Both the position numbers and the translations under genes were made by a program. A DNA stretch of 34,959 bases from assembly GCA_903855945.1 (NCBI GenBank), contig CAIOAK010000154.1:1-34959 (forward strand), in the 5' to 3' direction. Below, in pieces: positions 8,874-34,898 of the stretch (positions within the stretch are counted from its first letter, which is position 1; every line of letters starts with the position of its first letter). This DNA comes from an uncultured Anaeromyxobacter sp. (GTDB lineage Bacteria; Myxococcota; Myxococcia; Myxococcales; Anaeromyxobacteraceae). Under the pieces are notes generated by a model. That model was not told where the DNA came from, made no database searches, and worked only from the letters and a program-made list of their open reading frames with translations.

Positions 8874-9883
8874 GGTCCGCCCGCATCGCCGAGCTCGCCC
8901 GCCGCGAGCAGTCCGCCCTCGCCGATCTCCTCCTCGCCGTGGCGGAGTTCGACGGCCAGGCGTTGTACCGGCAGCTCGGCTTCTCCAGCCTCTTCGATTT
9001 CCTCCACCGGGAAGTCGGCCTGTCGCGGGGATCCGCGTACTACCGGCAGGTGGGCGCCCGGCTGGTCCGGCGCTTCCCCGAGGTGGAAGGGCCGATCAGG
9101 GACGGACGGTTGTGCATCACGACCGTCAGCGAGCTGGCCAAGGTGATGACGGAGGAGAACCGGGCCGAGGTGCTGCCCCTGTTCTTCGGCTGCTCCCGCC
9201 AGGAGGCGAAGCAGCTGGTGGCGGCGATCCGCCCGGTGGAGCAGGTGACGAGGAGGACGGTCGTCACGGAGGTGCCGGTCATCGTCCAAGTCGTCCAACC
9301 GGTTGGACGGGATCTGACCCACCCCGAACGGGTTCCGCTCATCCAGCCGGAGCGCGCGCAGGTCGAGCCGATGACCGCCACGGCGAGCCGCATCCACATC
9401 ACGGTGTCGCCGACGTTCCTGCCACTTCTGAAGAGGGCCAGGGCCGGCCAGTCTCACGTCCAGCCCAACGCCACCGACGAGCAGGTTCTCACGGCGGCGC
9501 TCGAGCTCCTGGTGGAGAAGCAGGAAAAGCGGAGGGCATCGGTAGCGGCCCGCGTGAAGCGGGAGGTGCGGGTCCGCGACGGCGGAAAATGCCAGTGGCC
9601 GCTGGCGTCCGGCGGGATTTGCGGCTCGGAGGTACGGGTGGAGATCGACCACATCCAACCCCGCGGAAAGGGCGGCCCCTCCACGGTCGCCAACTGCAGG
9701 ATCCTCTGCAAGCCGCACAACCTGGAGGCAGCGCGAAACACCTACGGCGACGAGGTGATGGACCGGTATTCCAGGGGCACTGGCGTACGGGAGGATTGCG
9801 CCGCCTACTCCGTAGCCGGCGCCGTGAGCGGCGACATCTCCCGCAACCGGGTCGCCTTCTCCACCACCAGCCGACCCACGTGA
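8858..9883 (+). CDS. HNH endonuclease domain protein
   Basis: This 341-residue protein combines a helical N-terminal domain (about 1-125, including [20 protein letters not shown] and a helix-turn-helix-like [15 protein letters not shown]) with a C-terminal HNH nuclease domain (about 235-300). The nuclease domain has [23 protein letters not shown] with His265, and [10 protein letters not shown], giving the Cys pairs and the H-N-H order expected for an active metal-dependent nuclease. Many high-G+C bacteria carry such genes in several copies, usually without known function. The last ~26 residues are encoded antisense to the end of iscS and look like non-native read-through. The gene holds an 18-bp perfect palindrome and an inverted repeat at its start, so a selfish or homing-like history is possible. 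Confidence 0.87.
9292..9309. repeat. 18-bp perfect palindrome inside the HNH gene
   Basis: CGTCCAACCGGTTGGACG is a perfect palindrome. It is preceded by a partial direct repeat of its left arm (CGTCCAA at 9283-9289). It lies in the linker between the N-terminal and HNH domains. Confidence 0.6.
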
Positions 9884-10980
9884 TCCACCTCCTCCTCCGT
9901 GTTGAACCGCCCGATGCCGAAGCGGATGGAGGAGTGGGCCAGCTCGTCGGACACGCCCATGGCGCGGAGCACGTAGGAGGGCTCGAGCGACGCCGACGTG
10001 CAGGCCGACCCGCTCGACACCGCCACGCCCCGCATGGCGATGAGGAGCGCCTCCCCCTCCACGTGGGCGAAGCTCAGGTTCAGGTTGCCGGGGAGCCGGT
10101 GCGTCAGGCTGCCGTTCACCGTCACGCGGTCCATGCCCGACTGGATGGCCCGTCGCAGCCGCTCCCGCAGCGCGAGGAGGCGCGGGGCCTCCGTCGCCAT
10201 CTCCGCCTGCGAAAGCTCCGCCGCCCTGCCGAACCCGACGATCCCCGGGACGTTGAGCGTGCCCGAGCGATAGCCCCGCTCGTGCCCTCCCCCGTCGATC
10301 TGCGCGACCAGCCTGGCGCGCGGCCGACGCCGCACGTAGAGCGCCCCCACCCCCTTCGGCCCGTACATCTTGTGGGCAGAGAGGGAGACCAGGTCGGCGT
10401 TCAGCGCCTCCACGTCGAAGGGGATGCGCCCGAGCGACTGCACCGCGTCGGTGTGGAGGAGCACCCCCTTCTCCCGGGTGATCCGCCCGATCTCCTCGAG
10501 GGGCTGGATGGTGCCCACCTCGTTGTTGGCGTGCATCACCGAGACGAGCACGGTGTCGGGCCGGATGGCGCGCCGCACCACCTCGGGGTCCACGATGCCC
10601 TCGCCGTCCACCGGCACGATGGTGACCTCGAACCCCTCCCGCGCGAGCGCCGCGAGCGAGTCGAGCACCGCCTTGTGCTCGATGGCGGTGGTGACGAGGT
10701 GGCGCCCCTTCGCGCCGTGGAAGCGGGCCGCGCCCTTCACGGCCAGGTTGTCCGACTCGGTGGCGCCGCTCGTCCAGACGATCTCCCGGGCGGTGGCGCC
10801 GATGAGCCGGGCCACCCGCTCCCGCGCCTCCTCCACCGCCTCCTCGGCCTTCCAGCCGAAGGAGTGGCTCTTCGAGGCGGCGTTCCCGAACGTCTCGGTG
10901 AAGAAGGGGAGCATGGCCTCGAGGACGCGCGGGTCCACCGGCGTCGTCGAGTGGCAGTCCATGTAGATCGGCATCTTCAA
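9805..10980 (-). CDS. iscS: Cysteine desulfurase IscS
   Basis: This 391-residue PLP enzyme takes sulfur from cysteine as an enzyme-bound persulfide for Fe-S cluster assembly and tRNA thiolation. It follows E. coli IscS closely: PLP-binding Lys204 in [10 protein letters not shown], active Cys327 in [17 protein letters not shown], and TSGATESDN and HVEGEAL-type motifs. The TTG start (MKMPIYMD) is chosen because IscS proteins begin MKxPIY; an ATG two codons later is the alternative. The C-terminus stops at [13 protein letters not shown], about 13 residues short of E. coli IscS, losing the tail that contacts IscU. No iscU or iscA lies nearby. It overlaps the HNH gene tail-to-tail by 79 bp. Confidence 0.96.
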
Positions 10981-13810: not shown

Positions 13811-14845
13811 ATGCATACGCACTCCGTCGCCGTGGTCGGCGCCTCCGGGTACTCGGGGGTCGAGCTCACGCGCATCGTGGCCCGCCACCCCCGCCTCTCC
13901 CTCGCCGCCCTCTACTCCGACCGCTGGGCCGACGAGCCGGCCGGCTCCCGCGCACCGCTCTCCGGCCCGGCCGCGGCGATCCGCTACCTGCCCCAGGCGC
14001 AGGCCGCCGCCCTCTCCGCCGACGTGGCCTTCCTGGCCACACCGGCCGAGGTGTCGCTGGCCCTCGCCCCGGGGCTGCACGCCCGCGGCGTCGCGGTGGT
14101 GGACCTGTCGGGCGCCTTCCGGCTCCACGACCCGGCCGCCTACCCGCGCTGGTACGGCTTCGACCACACCGCCGTCCCGCTCCTCGCCCAGGCCCGCTAC
14201 GGCCTGCCCGAGCTCGATCGCGCCGCCCTGCGCGGCGCCGCCTTCGTCACCAACCCGGGCTGCTACGCCACCGCCATCGCGCTGGCGCTCTCTCCCCTCG
14301 TCCGCTCCGGCCTCGCCTCCCGCGACGGCATCGCCGTCTCGGCGATGAGCGGCGTCTCCGGCGCCGGCCGCAAGGCGAGCGAGGACTACTCCTTCTGCGA
14401 GGTGGACGAGGACCTGCGCGCCTACCGGATCGGCCGCCACCAGCACGTGCCGGAGATCGAGCAGACGGTGGCCCGCTTCGCCGGCGGCGTCGGCCCCATC
14501 TCCTTCACCCCCCACCTCGTCCCGATCCGGCGCGGCATCCTGGCCACCTGCGCGCTGCGGGCCATGCCGGGCGCCACCGAACCGGCGCTGCGGGAGGCGC
14601 TCGACGCCGCCTACGGCCGGGAGCCCTTCGTGCGGGTGATGAAGCCCGACCAGGTGGCGGTGAAGGACGTGGCCCGCACGAACCGCTGCCACGTGGGCGC
14701 GGCCCTCGACGCCCGAACCGGGCTCGTGATCGCCGTCTCCGCCATCGACAACCTCGTGAAGGGGGCCGCCGGCCAGGCGGTGCAGGCCTACAACGCAACG
14801 CAGGGCTGGGACGAGACCCTCGGTCTCGACCTGCTGGGGGGCTAG
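13811..14845 (+). CDS. argC: N-acetyl-gamma-glutamyl-phosphate reductase
   Basis: This 344-residue enzyme reduces N-acetylglutamyl phosphate to the semialdehyde with NADPH, the third step of arginine synthesis. The N-terminal Rossmann motif is VAVVGASGYSGVELTRIVARH, the catalytic cysteine is Cys151 in TNPGCYATA, and SGVSGAGRKASE and FTPHLVPIRRGI are typical substrate-site motifs. Length is normal. The ATG start gives MHTHSVAVVGASGYSG; there is no Shine-Dalgarno sequence, and the probable promoter ends a few bases upstream, suggesting leaderless translation. It heads an operon with argJB (2-bp gap) and argR. Confidence 0.97.
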   Translation: MHTHSVAVVGASGYSGVELTRIVARHPRLSLAALYSDRWADEPAGSRAPLSGPAAAIRYLPQAQAAALSADVAFLATPAEVSLALAPGLHARGVAVVDLSGAFRLHDPAAYPRWYGFDHTAVPLLAQARYGLPELDRAALRGAAFVTNPGCYATAIALALSPLVRSGLASRDGIAVSAMSGVSGAGRKASEDYSFCEVDEDLRAYRIGRHQHVPEIEQTVARFAGGVGPISFTPHLVPIRRGILATCALRAMPGATEPALREALDAAYGREPFVRVMKPDQVAVKDVARTNRCHVGAALDARTGLVIAVSAIDNLVKGAAGQAVQAYNATQGWDETLGLDLLGG

Positions 14846-14847
14846 GC

Positions 14848-16944
14848 GTGAAGATCCCGAAGGGCTTCCGCTTCGGCGGCGTCGCGGTGGGCATCAAGCC
14901 CCAGCGGCGCGACGTGGCGCTCATCGTCTCCGACGTCCCGGCCGCGGGCGCCGGCCTCTTCACGGTGAACAAGGCCGCCGCCGCGCCGGTCATCGACGCC
15001 CGCGAACGGGTCCCCGCCGAGGGCATGCGCGCGGTGCTCGTGAACAGCGGCAACGCCAACGCCCTCACCGGCCCGCGCGGGCTGGAGGACGTGGCCAACC
15101 TGCGCGCCGCGGTGGCCGACGCCCTGGGCGTCCAGAAGCGCGCGGTGATCACCGCCTCCACCGGGGTCATCGGGGTCCGCCTTCCGGCCCAGAAGATCCT
15201 GGAGGCCCTGCCCTCCCTGGTGGAGCAGCTCGGCGCGCGCGCCGAGTGGGCCGCCGAGGCCATCATGACCACCGACACCCGCACCAAGATGGCGTCGCGC
15301 GAGGTGGTGGTGGGGGGCAAGGCGGCCACCATCTCGGCCATCGCCAAGGGCTCGGGCATGCTGGCGCCCCAGCTCGCCACCATGATCTGCGTGCTCGTGA
15401 CCGACGTGGCGGTCACCCCCAAGGTGCTCCAGGAGATCCTGGGACGCGCCGTGAAGCGCACCTTCGAGATGCTCACCGTGGACGGCGACATGTCCACCAA
15501 CGACTCGCTCATCGCGCTGGCCAACGGCCTGGCCGGCAACCCGCGCATCGCCGAGGACGGGCCCGACCAGGAGATCCTGGAGACCGCGGTCACCGACCTC
15601 TTCCGCGAGCTGACCCGGGCCATGGCCGCCGACGGCGAGGGGGCCACCCGGCTGCTCGAGGTGGTGGTGACCGGCGCCCCGTCCGACGCCGCCGCCCGGG
15701 ACGTGGCCCGCTCCATCGCTAATTCACCGCTAGTGAAGGCGGCCCTCTTCGGCGCCGACCCGAACTGGGGGCGCGTGCTCTCCACGGTGGGCGCGCGGGC
15801 CGGAACCCGCGGCTGGCTCATCGATCCCTACAAGGCCAAGGTCTCGCTGCAGGGCGTGGCGGTCTTCGCCGGCGGCGCACCGACCGAGTTCGACCGGGAG
15901 GCGCTCAAGGCCCGGATGCGCGAGCCCTCGGTGGATCTCAAGGTGGAGCTGGTGGACGGGGACGCGGCGGCAACGGCGTGGGGGTGCGACCTCTCCTACG
16001 ACTACGTGAAGATCAACGCCGACTACTCCTCCCAGATCGTGCAGAAGGCGGACGGCGGCGTGGCCCGCGAGGACCACGTGGCCAACTACTCGCCGGCCTT
16101 CAAGCGCGCGCTCCTCGCCGAGGCGCTCAAGTACATCGCGGCCTTCTCCGGACAGGTGGCGGTCATCAAGTACGGCGGCGCCGCCATGGTGAAGCAGTCG
16201 CTCAAGGAGGCCTTCGCCGAGGACGTGGCGCTGCTCAAGCAGGTGGGGCTGAAGCCGGTGGTGGTGCACGGCGGCGCGCAGGAGGTGACCCGGACCATGG
16301 AGCGGCTCGGGGAGCGCTCCGAGTTCGTGGACGGCATGCGAATCACCGACGCCGCCTCGCTCCCGGTGGTGGAGATGGTGCTCACCGGCAAGGTCAACCA
16401 GGAGCTGGTGGCGCTCTTGAACGCCCGCAACGCCTCGGCGGTGGGTCTCTCCGGCAAGGACGGGCAGCTGCTCCGCGCGCGCAAGATCGTGCACGAGAGC
16501 GGGCGCGACCTGGGTCACGTCGGCGAGGTGGTCGAGGTGAACAAGGACTTCCTCAAGATGCTGCTCAAGTCGGGGTACGTGCCGGTCATCTCCCCCATCG
16601 GGAGCGCCGAGGACGGAGGCGGACTCTCGGTGAATGCCGACGACGTGGCCGCCGCGGTGGCGGTGGCGCTGGGGGCGAAGAAGCTCATCTACCTCACCGA
16701 CGTCCCCGGCATCCTGGAGTCGGCGCCCGACGGCGGCATGGTTCGCCAGATCCCGGTTCCCGACCTCGAGAAGCGCATCGAGGCCGGCGCCATCACCGGC
16801 GGCATGAAGCACAAGGCACGCGCCATCCTGCGGGCGCTGGCCGGGGGCGTGGAGCGGGTCCACGTCCTCGACGGCCGCGTCCCCCACACCGTCATCGCCG
16901 AGCTCTTCACCGACCGCGGCGTGGGAACGCTCGTCTACCGATGA
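14848..16944 (+). CDS. argJB: Fused ornithine acetyltransferase (ArgJ) and acetylglutamate kinase (ArgB)
   Basis: One uninterrupted 698-residue frame encodes two enzymes. Residues 1-~394 are ArgJ, which moves acetyl groups from acetylornithine to glutamate. It has the self-cleavage motif LAPQLATM with nucleophile Thr178, VDGDMSTNDS, and the family C-terminus YDYVKINADYSS. A linker of about 17 residues leads to ArgB (about 412-698), which phosphorylates N-acetylglutamate. ArgB has KYGGAAM with Lys441, SVNADDVAAAVAVALGA, LTDVPGIL and GGMKHKARA. Self-cleavage at Thr178 would leave ArgB attached to the ArgJ beta chain. The usual GGGPQI of ArgB reads GGAQEV here. The GTG start is 2 bp after argC. 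A GTG at the linker could allow separate ArgB synthesis. One palindrome copy lies at 15723-15737. Confidence 0.93.
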   Translation: MKIPKGFRFGGVAVGIKPQRRDVALIVSDVPAAGAGLFTVNKAAAAPVIDARERVPAEGMRAVLVNSGNANALTGPRGLEDVANLRAAVADALGVQKRAVITASTGVIGVRLPAQKILEALPSLVEQLGARAEWAAEAIMTTDTRTKMASREVVVGGKAATISAIAKGSGMLAPQLATMICVLVTDVAVTPKVLQEILGRAVKRTFEMLTVDGDMSTNDSLIALANGLAGNPRIAEDGPDQEILETAVTDLFRELTRAMAADGEGATRLLEVVVTGAPSDAAARDVARSIANSPLVKAALFGADPNWGRVLSTVGARAGTRGWLIDPYKAKVSLQGVAVFAGGAPTEFDREALKARMREPSVDLKVELVDGDAAATAWGCDLSYDYVKINADYSSQIVQKADGGVAREDHVANYSPAFKRALLAEALKYIAAFSGQVAVIKYGGAAMVKQSLKEAFAEDVALLKQVGLKPVVVHGGAQEVTRTMERLGERSEFVDGMRITDAASLPVVEMVLTGKVNQELVALLNARNASAVGLSGKDGQLLRARKIVHESGRDLGHVGEVVEVNKDFLKMLLKSGYVPVISPIGSAEDGGGLSVNADDVAAAVAVALGAKKLIYLTDVPGILESAPDGGMVRQIPVPDLEKRIEAGAITGGMKHKARAILRALAGGVERVHVLDGRVPHTVIAELFTDRGVGTLVYR
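15723..15737. repeat. TTCAC-N5-GTGAA palindrome, copy 3 (exact arms)
   Basis: TTCACCGCTAGTGAA within the ArgJ part of argJB. It is read as T|TCA|CCG|CTA|GTG|AA and brings the rare codons AAT, TCA and CTA into a strongly G/C-ending gene. Confidence 0.7.
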
Positions 16945-27006: not shown

Positions 27007-27789
27007 TCACAGGTTCGTCGTCCCCTCGAATACCCGCTCGGCCGGCCCCTTCATCTTCACGGAGAGGTCGTCCGCCACGGTGATCTCGAGGGTCCCGCCG
27101 GGAAGCTTCACCGCGATGGGAACGCCCCGGTCGAGCCGCCCCTCGTGCAGGGCGGCCACCGCGGCCGCGCAGGCGCCGGTGCCGCAGGCCTCGGTGAGCC
27201 CGGCGCCCCGCTCCCAGACGACGAGGTCCACCCGGGAGCCGGAGGCGCTTCCGAAGCCCACGTTCACCCCGCCCGGGACCAGGGCCTGGATGGCCGGTCC
27301 GACGGTGGCGGCCCGGGCCGCATCGGCTCCGTCGAGGATCACCGCGTGGGGGTTGCCCATCGACACCCGCACGGCGCGCACGCATTCCGCGCCGAGGACG
27401 AACTCCTGCGTCCCCTCGACCCGGGCGCGCCCCATGTCCACGGTGACGGCGTCCACGCCCGCGGCGCCCCGGTGGACCCGGCAGGCCCGCGGTCCCGCGT
27501 CGGTCTCGACCACGATCTCCCCGTCGAGCCCGCGGGTCTCGGCCAGGTGGCGGGCCACGCAGCGCACCCCGTTGCCGCACATGGCGGCCACCGAGCCGTC
27601 GGGGTTGTAGATGTGCATGTAGGCCGCGCCGTCCGCGCGGGCGGGCAGGATGGTGAGCACCCCGTCCGCGCCGATGCCGCGCCGCCGATCGCAGAGCGCG
27701 ACGGCGCGCTCGGCGGTCATGAGCGGCTCCCCCTCCACGACCACGAAGTCGTTTCCCAGGCCCTGGTACTTCCAGAAGTGGAGCGGCAC
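27007..27789 (-). CDS. dapF: Diaminopimelate epimerase
   Basis: This 260-residue cytoplasmic enzyme interconverts LL- and meso-diaminopimelate for lysine and peptidoglycan synthesis. It has the N-terminal KYQGLGNDFVVV, the first catalytic cysteine Cys71 in MCGNGVRC and the second Cys202 in EACGTGACA, plus SMGNPHAV. Length is slightly short but normal. The GTG start gives MPLHFWKYQGLGND. A TAGGAT element ends 6 bp before it and no Shine-Dalgarno is seen. It follows argE by 22 bp on the same strand, so it may be read from the argE transcript, from its own start, or both. Confidence 0.96.
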   Translation of the reverse strand: MPLHFWKYQGLGNDFVVVEGEPLMTAERAVALCDRRRGIGADGVLTILPARADGAAYMHIYNPDGSVAAMCGNGVRCVARHLAETRGLDGEIVVETDAGPRACRVHRGAAGVDAVTVDMGRARVEGTQEFVLGAECVRAVRVSMGNPHAVILDGADAARAATVGPAIQALVPGGVNVGFGSASGSRVDLVVWERGAGLTEACGTGACAAAVAALHEGRLDRGVPIAVKLPGGTLEITVADDLSVKMKGPAERVFEGTTNL

Positions 27790-27811
27790 GGCGCGATCCT
27801 AGTCGATCCGC

Positions 27812-28930
27812 TCAGGCGCAGAAACGGGTGATGGCGCGCCCGTAGGCGTCGGCGGCACGATGGACCTCGTCGAGCGGCACGAACTCGCCGGTGCGGTGGG
27901 CCACGCGGATGTCGCCCGGCCCGAAGACGCAGGCCTCCGCACCCAGGTGGATGAGCTCGGGCAGCTCGGTGCCGAACGGGATGGCCACCGAGCCGTTTCC
28001 GCTCTCCGTCTCGAGGAATCGGACCACCTCGGCGTCGGCGGGGGTCACGCCGGCCGGATCGACCCGCATCGGCGTGCGGGAGACGGTGATCTTGCCGCCC
28101 GAGGCCTGCTCGAGCGCGCGCGAGGCGGCGTCCACCCGGTCGAGCCCCAGGACCGGTTCCTGGCCGGGGATGGGGCGCCACTCCAGCGTGAAGAAGCAGT
28201 CGCCGGCGAGCACGTTGCGCGCCTTGCCCCCGTGGATGATGCCCACGTTGAAGGTGGTGTGAGGCGGGGAGAAGGTGGCATCGGAGTGCACGGCGGCGAG
28301 CCGCGCCTGGATGCGCTCGATCTCGGTGATGAGCCGCGCGGCAGCGTGGATGGCCGACGCCCCCACGTCGGGGAAGGCGCTGTGCCCCTCGATGCCGGTG
28401 ACGGTGACGTCCACGGCGCAGTAGCCCTTGTGGGCGCGCACCGGCACGAGCCGGGTGGGCTCGCCGATGATGGCGCGGGCGGGGCGGATCCGCCCCTCGT
28501 GGGCGAGCGCCTTCGCCCCCTGGCAACCCACCTCCTCGTCGGCGGTGAAGAGGAGCCAGAGCGGCCCGCGGGCCGGGCGCACGCGCGAGGCGGCGAGCAG
28601 CATGGCGGCGATGGAGCCCTTCGTGTCGGCCGAGCCGCGCCCGAAGAGGTTGCCGTCCCGCACCGTGCCGGAGAGGGCCTCGCCCCAGTCGGGATCGAAG
28701 GGCACGCAGTCGGTGTGACCCACGAGCGCCAGCCCGCCCGGCTCGTCGGGACCCATCCGGGCGATGAGGTTCCCCTTCTCCACGCCGACGGCGTCGGGCC
28801 AGGTCATGCGACGGGTCTCGAAGCCCAGGCGGCGGACGCGCGGCTCGAGCCAGTCGAGCACCGGCAGGTTGCTCCGCGAGGAGGTCGAGTCGATGGCGAC
28901 GAGCGCCTGGAGCGTTTCGACGATGTCCAT
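27812..28930 (-). CDS. argE: Acetylornithine deacetylase (M20 family)
   Basis: This 372-residue M20 metallohydrolase has the di-zinc site motifs in order: GHTDCVPFD, GRGSADTKGSIAA, TADEEVGCQGA (general-base and ligand Glu), GEPT, and a C-terminal His in VAHRTGEFVPLDE. The overall pattern, including MLEPR-like ends and HKGYCAVDVTVTGIEGHSAFP, fits ArgE rather than DapE or carboxypeptidase G2. ArgE hydrolyses N-acetylornithine to ornithine. Since ArgJ is also encoded here, the cell may have both the cyclic and linear routes, or this enzyme may act on other N-acyl amino acids. The ATG is one base after the hutF stop, so the two are coupled. Confidence 0.85.
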   Translation of the reverse strand: MDIVETLQALVAIDSTSSRSNLPVLDWLEPRVRRLGFETRRMTWPDAVGVEKGNLIARMGPDEPGGLALVGHTDCVPFDPDWGEALSGTVRDGNLFGRGSADTKGSIAAMLLAASRVRPARGPLWLLFTADEEVGCQGAKALAHEGRIRPARAIIGEPTRLVPVRAHKGYCAVDVTVTGIEGHSAFPDVGASAIHAAARLITEIERIQARLAAVHSDATFSPPHTTFNVGIIHGGKARNVLAGDCFFTLEWRPIPGQEPVLGLDRVDAASRALEQASGGKITVSRTPMRVDPAGVTPADAEVVRFLETESGNGSVAIPFGTELPELIHLGAEACVFGPGDIRVAHRTGEFVPLDEVHRAADAYGRAITRFCA

Positions 28931-33255: not shown

Positions 33256-34641
<1,386 letters not shown>

Positions 34642-34676
34642 TCCCGAACCTCCGCGTGCTCCGTCCGTCCTCGATT

Positions 34677-34898
34677 CTACCGACCGGACCGACGTGCGCC
34701 GCACGACTCGACCCAGGCGCGGAGTTCACCCGGTATAAACCGGATGCCCCAGCCTCCGAGCCGCCGGACCGGGAGCGTCCCGTCCTCGGCCTTGTGGTAG
34801 ACCCAGCTCACGCTGCGCTTCAGGTAGCGGGCCGCGGCGCGGACATCCCAGAGCTCGTCGTCGGGTGGCAGCGAAGTAGGCCCTGGCGCTTCGCCCAC
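34677..34898 (-). CDS. Excisionase-like helix-turn-helix protein
   Basis: This 73-residue protein contains a MerR/excisionase-type helix-turn-helix (LWDVRAAARYLKRSVSWVYHKAEDGTLPVRRLGG, then GIRFIPGELRAWVES), like AlpA or HTH_17 proteins. Small proteins of this kind control the direction of recombination or regulate the integrase. The GTG start gives MGEAPGPTSLPPDDELWDV. The stop is 35 bp before the integrase start on the same strand, so the two are probably cotranscribed. The 61 bp beyond it to the window edge contain no gene I can support. Confidence 0.82.
   Translation of the reverse strand: MGEAPGPTSLPPDDELWDVRAAARYLKRSVSWVYHKAEDGTLPVRRLGGWGIRFIPGELRAWVESCGARRSGR

Follow-up and report, generated by a model that had tools for sequence, protein, structure and literature searches.

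An ArgJ joined to an N-acetylglutamate-kinase-like domain in Myxococcota: a candidate arginine-controlled producer of N-acetylglutamate

The fused frame, its chains and its distribution

ArgJ and ArgB are encoded in one frame at this locus, which raises the question of what holds the two in a single chain. The frame lies in the window, the whole stretch of 34,959 nucleotides analysed here from an uncultured Anaeromyxobacter sp. whose source genome is 4.07 Mb. The initial annotation proposed a natural ArgJ-ArgB fusion of enzymes of consecutive steps, placed in an argC-argJB-argR operon, and suggested that the fusion could channel the intermediate. The fusion itself was confirmed, because window 14848-16944 (+) is one stop-free frame of 698 residues with both families above cut-off, and argC, argJB and argR follow in that order, each matched by profile. 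The features used below are as follows.

13811..14845 (+): argC, N-acetyl-gamma-glutamyl-phosphate reductase, first gene of the operon (TIGR01850 369 bits, cut-off 233.6)
14848..16944 (+): argJB, ArgJ plus an N-acetylglutamate-kinase (AAK) domain in a single 698-residue frame (profile matches)
14848..15378 (+): predicted ArgJ alpha chain, residues 1-177 (the solved alpha chains 1vra_A and 3it4_A end at query residue 177; putative cleavage)
15379..16032 (+): ArgJ beta chain part, T178-S395 (aligned to 1vra_B and 3it4_B)
16033..16092 (+): linker, residues 396-415, with the putative arginine-sensing N-helix directly after it (segment 391-430 is length-invariant in 79 fused proteins)
16093..16941 (+): AAK (ArgB-like) domain, residues 416-698, with the N-helix at 416-433 (TIGR00761 249.6 bits; AlphaFold; Foldseek)
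16276..16278 (+): A477, equivalent of G45 of E. coli NAGK (Ala in 28 of 28 window-family rows)
16627..16629 (+): S594, equivalent of the NAG-binding N158 of E. coli NAGK (Ser in 28 of 28 window-family rows)
16681..16683 (+): K612, arginine-site lysine, equivalent of T. maritima K196 (alignment)
16900..16929 (+): arginine-site motif E685-L-F-T-D-R-G-V-G-T694 (motif defined in PMC4490483 and PMC3236213)
16941..17411 (+): argR, arginine repressor (PF01316 and PF02863 above cut-off)
27812..28930 (-): argE-like acetylornithine deacetylase, beside dapF (TIGR01892 365.4 bits, cut-off 297.7; M20 domains)

argC ends 2 bases upstream of argJB, and argJB overlaps argR by 4 bases (ATGA). The TIGR01529 score of argR, 115.8 bits, is slightly below its cut-off of 130.45. 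The ArgJ part covers residues 2-395 of the fused protein (NF003802 458.6 bits, cut-off 351; PF01960 459 bits; TIGR00120 411.5 bits, cut-off 298). The ArgB part covers residues 438-673 (TIGR00761 249.6 bits, cut-off 151.3; PF00696 155 bits).

In the ArgJ part of the window protein T105, K167, A177-T178, E264 and N390 are present, that is, the KGSGM...AT self-cleavage site and the substrate-site residues. The putative self-cleavage Thr is residue 178, as annotated at first, and with this intact motif, cleavage would leave the kinase on the beta chain of ArgJ. Beta chain and kinase are predicted to form one piece, but the computed mass is 54.9 kDa rather than the approximately 50 kDa first given; that of the alpha chain is 18.0 kDa. 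The linker is likewise present but spans about 20 residues, from S395 to the N-helix at about 416, and not 17. The active-site equivalents in the beta chain are T178 (nucleophile), E264, N390 and S395. The C-terminal residue of ArgJ, here S395, presumably lines the substrate site, judging from ArgJ structures and annotation, and in the alignment S395 falls on the final residue of the beta chain in the M. tuberculosis ArgJ structure (3it4_B). When 87 fused ORFs were aligned, T105, G106, K167, E264 and N390 were kept in all covering rows, and the nucleophile was Thr or Ser. Ser replaces Thr in L147, L148, L156, L173-L178, L181, L182, L184, L050 and L051.

Besides the window protein, 78 distinct fused relatives were collected, all from Myxococcota and with the same frame, which bears out the view of a natural and conserved fusion. 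It was found in 23 of the 24 genomes of the window's family, which includes Anaeromyxobacter (the exception is a 74% complete genome), in many other genomes of the window's order and in three of four genomes of the more distant family f17. Anaeromyxobacter soli and Archangium violaceum are named carriers. One contig scan of 69 non-myxococcal loci gave no fusion; both genes, where present, were in separate frames, and a few of these loci showed ArgJ alone. A literature search of open-licence papers found no description of an ArgJ-ArgB fusion. In the trees, the fused ArgJ halves formed one clade (support 100/99) and the fused kinase halves also formed one (100/100). Since both halves are monophyletic, a single fusion event, in an ancestor within Myxococcota, is the simplest history.

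Some loci depart from this pattern. The frame of the fused gene in L130 (G036:C4) is broken inside the kinase part, by an assembly error or a real fission. G103 carries two fusion copies (L165 and L166), and the kinase half of the second is more degenerate. In scans of G050, G054, G026 and comparable f4 genomes, neither an ArgJ match nor a fusion appeared; G050 encodes an unfused NAGK that has the arginine site (L133).

Catalytic and arginine-site residues of the kinase half

AlphaFold predicted two well-formed domains, of uncertain relative placement, both for the window protein (mean pLDDT 90.3, pTM 0.62) and for the degenerate relative L050 (mean pLDDT 88.6, pTM 0.64); for the window model the pTM of 0.62 is the reason. 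Foldseek matched the window model to the solved ornithine acetyltransferase 1vz8, and its best kinase matches were arginine-sensitive NAGKs; this and the following comparison are statements on fold and not on function. The best kinase match of the L050 kinase half was the arginine-sensitive NAGK 2bty (Z 34.0, rmsd 2.6 Å over 253 residues), and NAGS 2r8v gave Z 29.2.

The catalytic residues were numbered by E. coli NAGK, with K8, K217, G11, G44, G45 and D162 and the NAG-binding G64, R66 and N158 among the positions used (PMC3236213, PMC3329491). G45 is one of the residues for ATP binding and catalysis (PMC3329491), and N158 binds NAG (PMC3236213). In the alignment all ten catalytic positions are intact in f7, f2, G028 and two f17 members. 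The window's family has the pattern KGGAGRSDGK, with G45A and N158S in 28 of 28 rows. The window kinase thus keeps the equivalents of K8, G11, G44, R66, D162 and K217, and has Ala and Ser in place of G45 and N158. The Archangium group shows RGGGGLDDSR or a similar pattern (K8R, R66L, N158D, K217R), and in other f4 genera R66 and the glycine motif are lost. At least six switches between the intact and the altered kinase state are required by the tree. We infer from these substitutions that kinase activity has been lost in the degenerate lineages, and many of these genes are probably mislabelled as 'acetylglutamate kinase'. Judged by its residues, the window protein is an intermediate, with the catalytic lysines, R66 and D162 equivalents kept and two substrate-site positions changed. 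Its AAK domain is a NAGK homologue by alignment, and an active NAGK is not claimed; from these residues, the odds of activity appear roughly even. Within the window's family, the mean pairwise identity is 79.5% for AAK against 74.8% for ArgJ.

The arginine site of this fold consists of the motif E-(L/I)-(F/M)-(T/S)-x-x-G-x-G-T, a central Lys and an N-terminal helix (PMC4490483). The window protein has the N-helix, ELFTDRGVGT, K612, Y429 and F433, which together make up a predicted arginine site. The Y, F, K, E, G, G and T/S of the site are kept in every covering fused AAK domain, with the broken frame of L130 as the sole exception. The predicted site is kept even in domains with K8R, R66L, N158D, K217R or deletions. 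Over 66 columns conserved in the intact fused domains and the separate NAGKs, the degenerate domains retained 100% of the arginine-site columns, 42% of the catalytic columns and 75% of the columns elsewhere; the permutation P values for this asymmetry, 0.0017 and 0.0005, ignore shared ancestry. Among 79 distinct proteins there is no length variation in the 40-residue segment 391-430, which runs from the ArgJ end to the N-helix. By contrast, kinase lengths differ by tens of residues, and one region of ArgJ is rich in indels. G403, P416 and K419 of the linker region are about 100% conserved in the 79 fused proteins. A linker of such fixed length is unlike a passive tether. In NAGS, a longer linker abolishes arginine inhibition (PMC4490483). 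The residue pattern points to arginine binding by the fused AAK domain.

A separate ArgB and the pathway context

The window genome has a second ArgB that adjoins a second ArgC at locus L124. The argC2-argB2 pair is at L124:7255-8073 (-) and about 9522-10562 (-) (G000:C15), and in the window's family a divergent M20-type peptidase gene stands beside it. Related pairs occur in f4, f6, f10 and f17. The separate ArgB2 proteins form their own clade in the kinase tree (support 100/100) and keep the ten catalytic positions, except that two of the proteins have another residue at one Gly. Larger differences at the catalytic positions occur in a divergent f4 protein, which matches ArgB1 better than ArgB2. 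ArgB2 has neither the N-helix nor the ELFT motif, the reverse of the degenerate fused kinases. A LysW-type kinase was also considered for ArgB2 and rejected, with the LysW models below their cut-offs and TIGR00761 passed; by its profiles the protein was treated as NAGK-like.

Of the verified degenerate genomes, 31 of 34 carry a separate ArgB, as do 21 of the 23 window-family genomes and 3 of the 14 intact-kinase genomes. The Fisher comparison of degenerate with intact genomes gave p = 5e-6, a value that ignores shared ancestry. With shared ancestry removed, the association of ArgB2 with decay was not significant, at three to five independent pairs. Three intact-kinase genomes carry ArgB2 too, and for three degenerate genomes no other ArgB was found; one of the latter, G086, is 98% complete. 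With a backup kinase that lacks feedback, the fused kinase may have been free to decay, and the fused domain would have remained as the arginine sensor.

Among the 18 genomes tested, no classical NAGS scored above cut-off, and an argE-like gene did so in the window and 11 others. In the window, the argE-like gene and dapF span 27007-28930 (-), so that ArgJ and ArgE coexist. Linear pathways tend toward control at step 1 (PMC3236213). If ArgJ is the acetyl-CoA-dependent first enzyme and ArgE frees ornithine, as these genes suggest, control would therefore be expected at ArgJ. L123:6627-7946 (+) (G000:C59) encodes a second ArgJ, with 439 aa and 36.5% identity to the fused ArgJ; its active-site residues are intact, and it is present throughout the window's family. 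A tyrosine recombinase of the phage integrase family is encoded at 33262-34704 (-), close to the end of the window.

Possible functions of the fused kinase domain

The reading that we prefer, with a probability of about 0.6, is that the fused protein is an arginine-controlled ArgJ. Its AAK would be a regulatory domain that some lineages keep as a kinase and others as a pseudokinase, as the retained and lost residues suggest. A single event in an ancestor among the Myxococcota would have appended an arginine-sensitive N-acetylglutamate kinase to the ArgJ C-terminus. The AAK would contribute its N-terminal helix and arginine site, and the fixed-length linker would tie both to the last ArgJ residue. 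At high levels, arginine would bind the AAK, and the N-helix would move as in arginine-sensitive NAGK and NAGS. Transmitted by the linker, this motion would reach the beta chain of ArgJ and slow N-acetylglutamate production; arginine would thus inhibit ArgJ through the AAK. Where the kinase is intact, as in f7, the fusion would probably perform step 2 as well. Where a separate, arginine-insensitive ArgB2 is present, catalysis by the fused kinase would have decayed repeatedly while the sensor remained. The fusion would then be, somewhat more probably than otherwise, a previously undescribed feedback-controlled producer of N-acetylglutamate, in which the AAK became a pseudokinase several times and the design of NAGS was reinvented with an unrelated catalytic domain.

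Several points stand against an arginine-controlled ArgJ. The AAK of the window's family is strongly conserved, with the K8, R66, D162 and K217 equivalents, and could have retained kinase activity. The association with ArgB2 rests on few independent pairs, with exceptions on both sides, namely intact kinases with ArgB2 and degenerate ones without it. Because the arginine site shares residues with the N-helix interface, its conservation could be partly structural. The argE-like genes and the second ArgJ cloud the true flux route.

The strongest competitor, which we regard as distinctly less probable, is a bifunctional enzyme in which an active fused kinase takes N-acetylglutamate from ArgJ by proximity or channelling. 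In its favour, catalytic residues are fully intact in f7, f2, two f17 members and G028, and the majority of these have no other ArgB; the window kinase retains six catalytic equivalents (K8, G11, G44, R66, D162, K217) and 250 bits with TIGR00761. However, many members hold the fusion and the fixed linker despite a destroyed kinase site, and every one of the 28 window-family rows has both G45A and N158S, in a family that also has a separate canonical ArgB. Since the fusion, the arginine site and the linker length are kept where catalytic residues are gone, the fusion must there be maintained by something besides kinase catalysis. Channelling, the purpose initially suggested for the fusion, is therefore not supported as its conserved purpose; by their residues, it cannot account for the members with an apparently dead kinase. 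It may operate in the intact-kinase lineages and in the window's own family, and a bifunctional enzyme can be partly true alongside arginine control in the intact-kinase lineages.

It is unlikely that the main reason for keeping the AAK is to stabilise ArgJ as a scaffold for oligomerisation, with arginine binding a by-product. In arginine-sensitive NAGK and NAGS, hexamer assembly is indeed driven by the AAK N-helices (PMC4490483, PMC3329491), and the N-helix is conserved here. However, K612, E685 and the ELFTxxGxGT loop are fixed although the fold does not need them, and E. coli NAGK and ArgB2 fold without a full arginine site. A changed substrate of the window-family kinase, with G45A and N158S reshaping the acyl-amino-acid pocket, is less likely still. 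Only G45 and N158 are uniformly altered among the catalytic columns of a strongly conserved domain, but argC, argJB and argR are all arginine genes, and the neighbourhood suggests no other substrate. A sequencing or assembly artefact, a missed stop or a chance frame, conceivable at 73% GC with many long spurious frames in the window, is ruled out for practical purposes because the identical in-frame fusion with the same linker length is conserved in 78 other distinct proteins.

An arginine-controlled ArgJ would resemble classical NAGS (ArgA), which also has a NAGK-fold AAK with an arginine site, a constrained linker to the step-1 acetyltransferase and a regulatory role of the AAK, as proposed here. 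Unlike in NAGS, the catalytic domain is ArgJ, unrelated to GNAT, the order is reversed (ArgJ, then AAK), and some kinase sites are intact. The protein contains only ArgJ and AAK domains and no GNAT, and its TIGR01890 score of 146.9 comes from the AAK part only and is below 202.85. By this analogy, it is not a NAGS but may work like one. The bifunctional NAGS/K of Xanthomonas and Maricaulis likewise combines step-1 acetylation and a NAGK domain with an arginine site in one chain; its AAK is N-terminal and its GNAT C-terminal, it has no ArgJ, and the kinases are active (PMC3236213). The hexameric arginine-sensitive NAGKs of T. maritima (2bty) and P. aeruginosa (2buf) share the fold, N-helix and arginine motif with the fused AAK, at about 41-48% identity (Foldseek rows), but are free-standing, active and not fused to ArgJ. 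Neighbouring argJ and argB of Bacillota and others are the same two genes in the same order, but in separate frames in every non-myxococcal locus examined that holds both. In yeast ARG5,6 and the fungal NAGS-NAGK metabolon, early arginine steps are physically coupled and under arginine control (PMC3329491), whereas ARG5,6 is a mitochondrial ArgB-ArgC precursor with a non-covalent NAGS partner. ArgH(A) of marine gammaproteobacteria is also a lineage-specific fusion of arginine genes, but of ArgH with a GNAT NAGS domain (PMC1382215).

If the preferred reading is true, arginine feedback on ArgJ through a captured kinase would be convergent control logic in unrelated acetyltransferases. The natural series from active kinase to pseudokinase with a sensor would show an enzyme becoming a regulatory domain. 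The fusion would also be a concrete model for how NAGS may have arisen.
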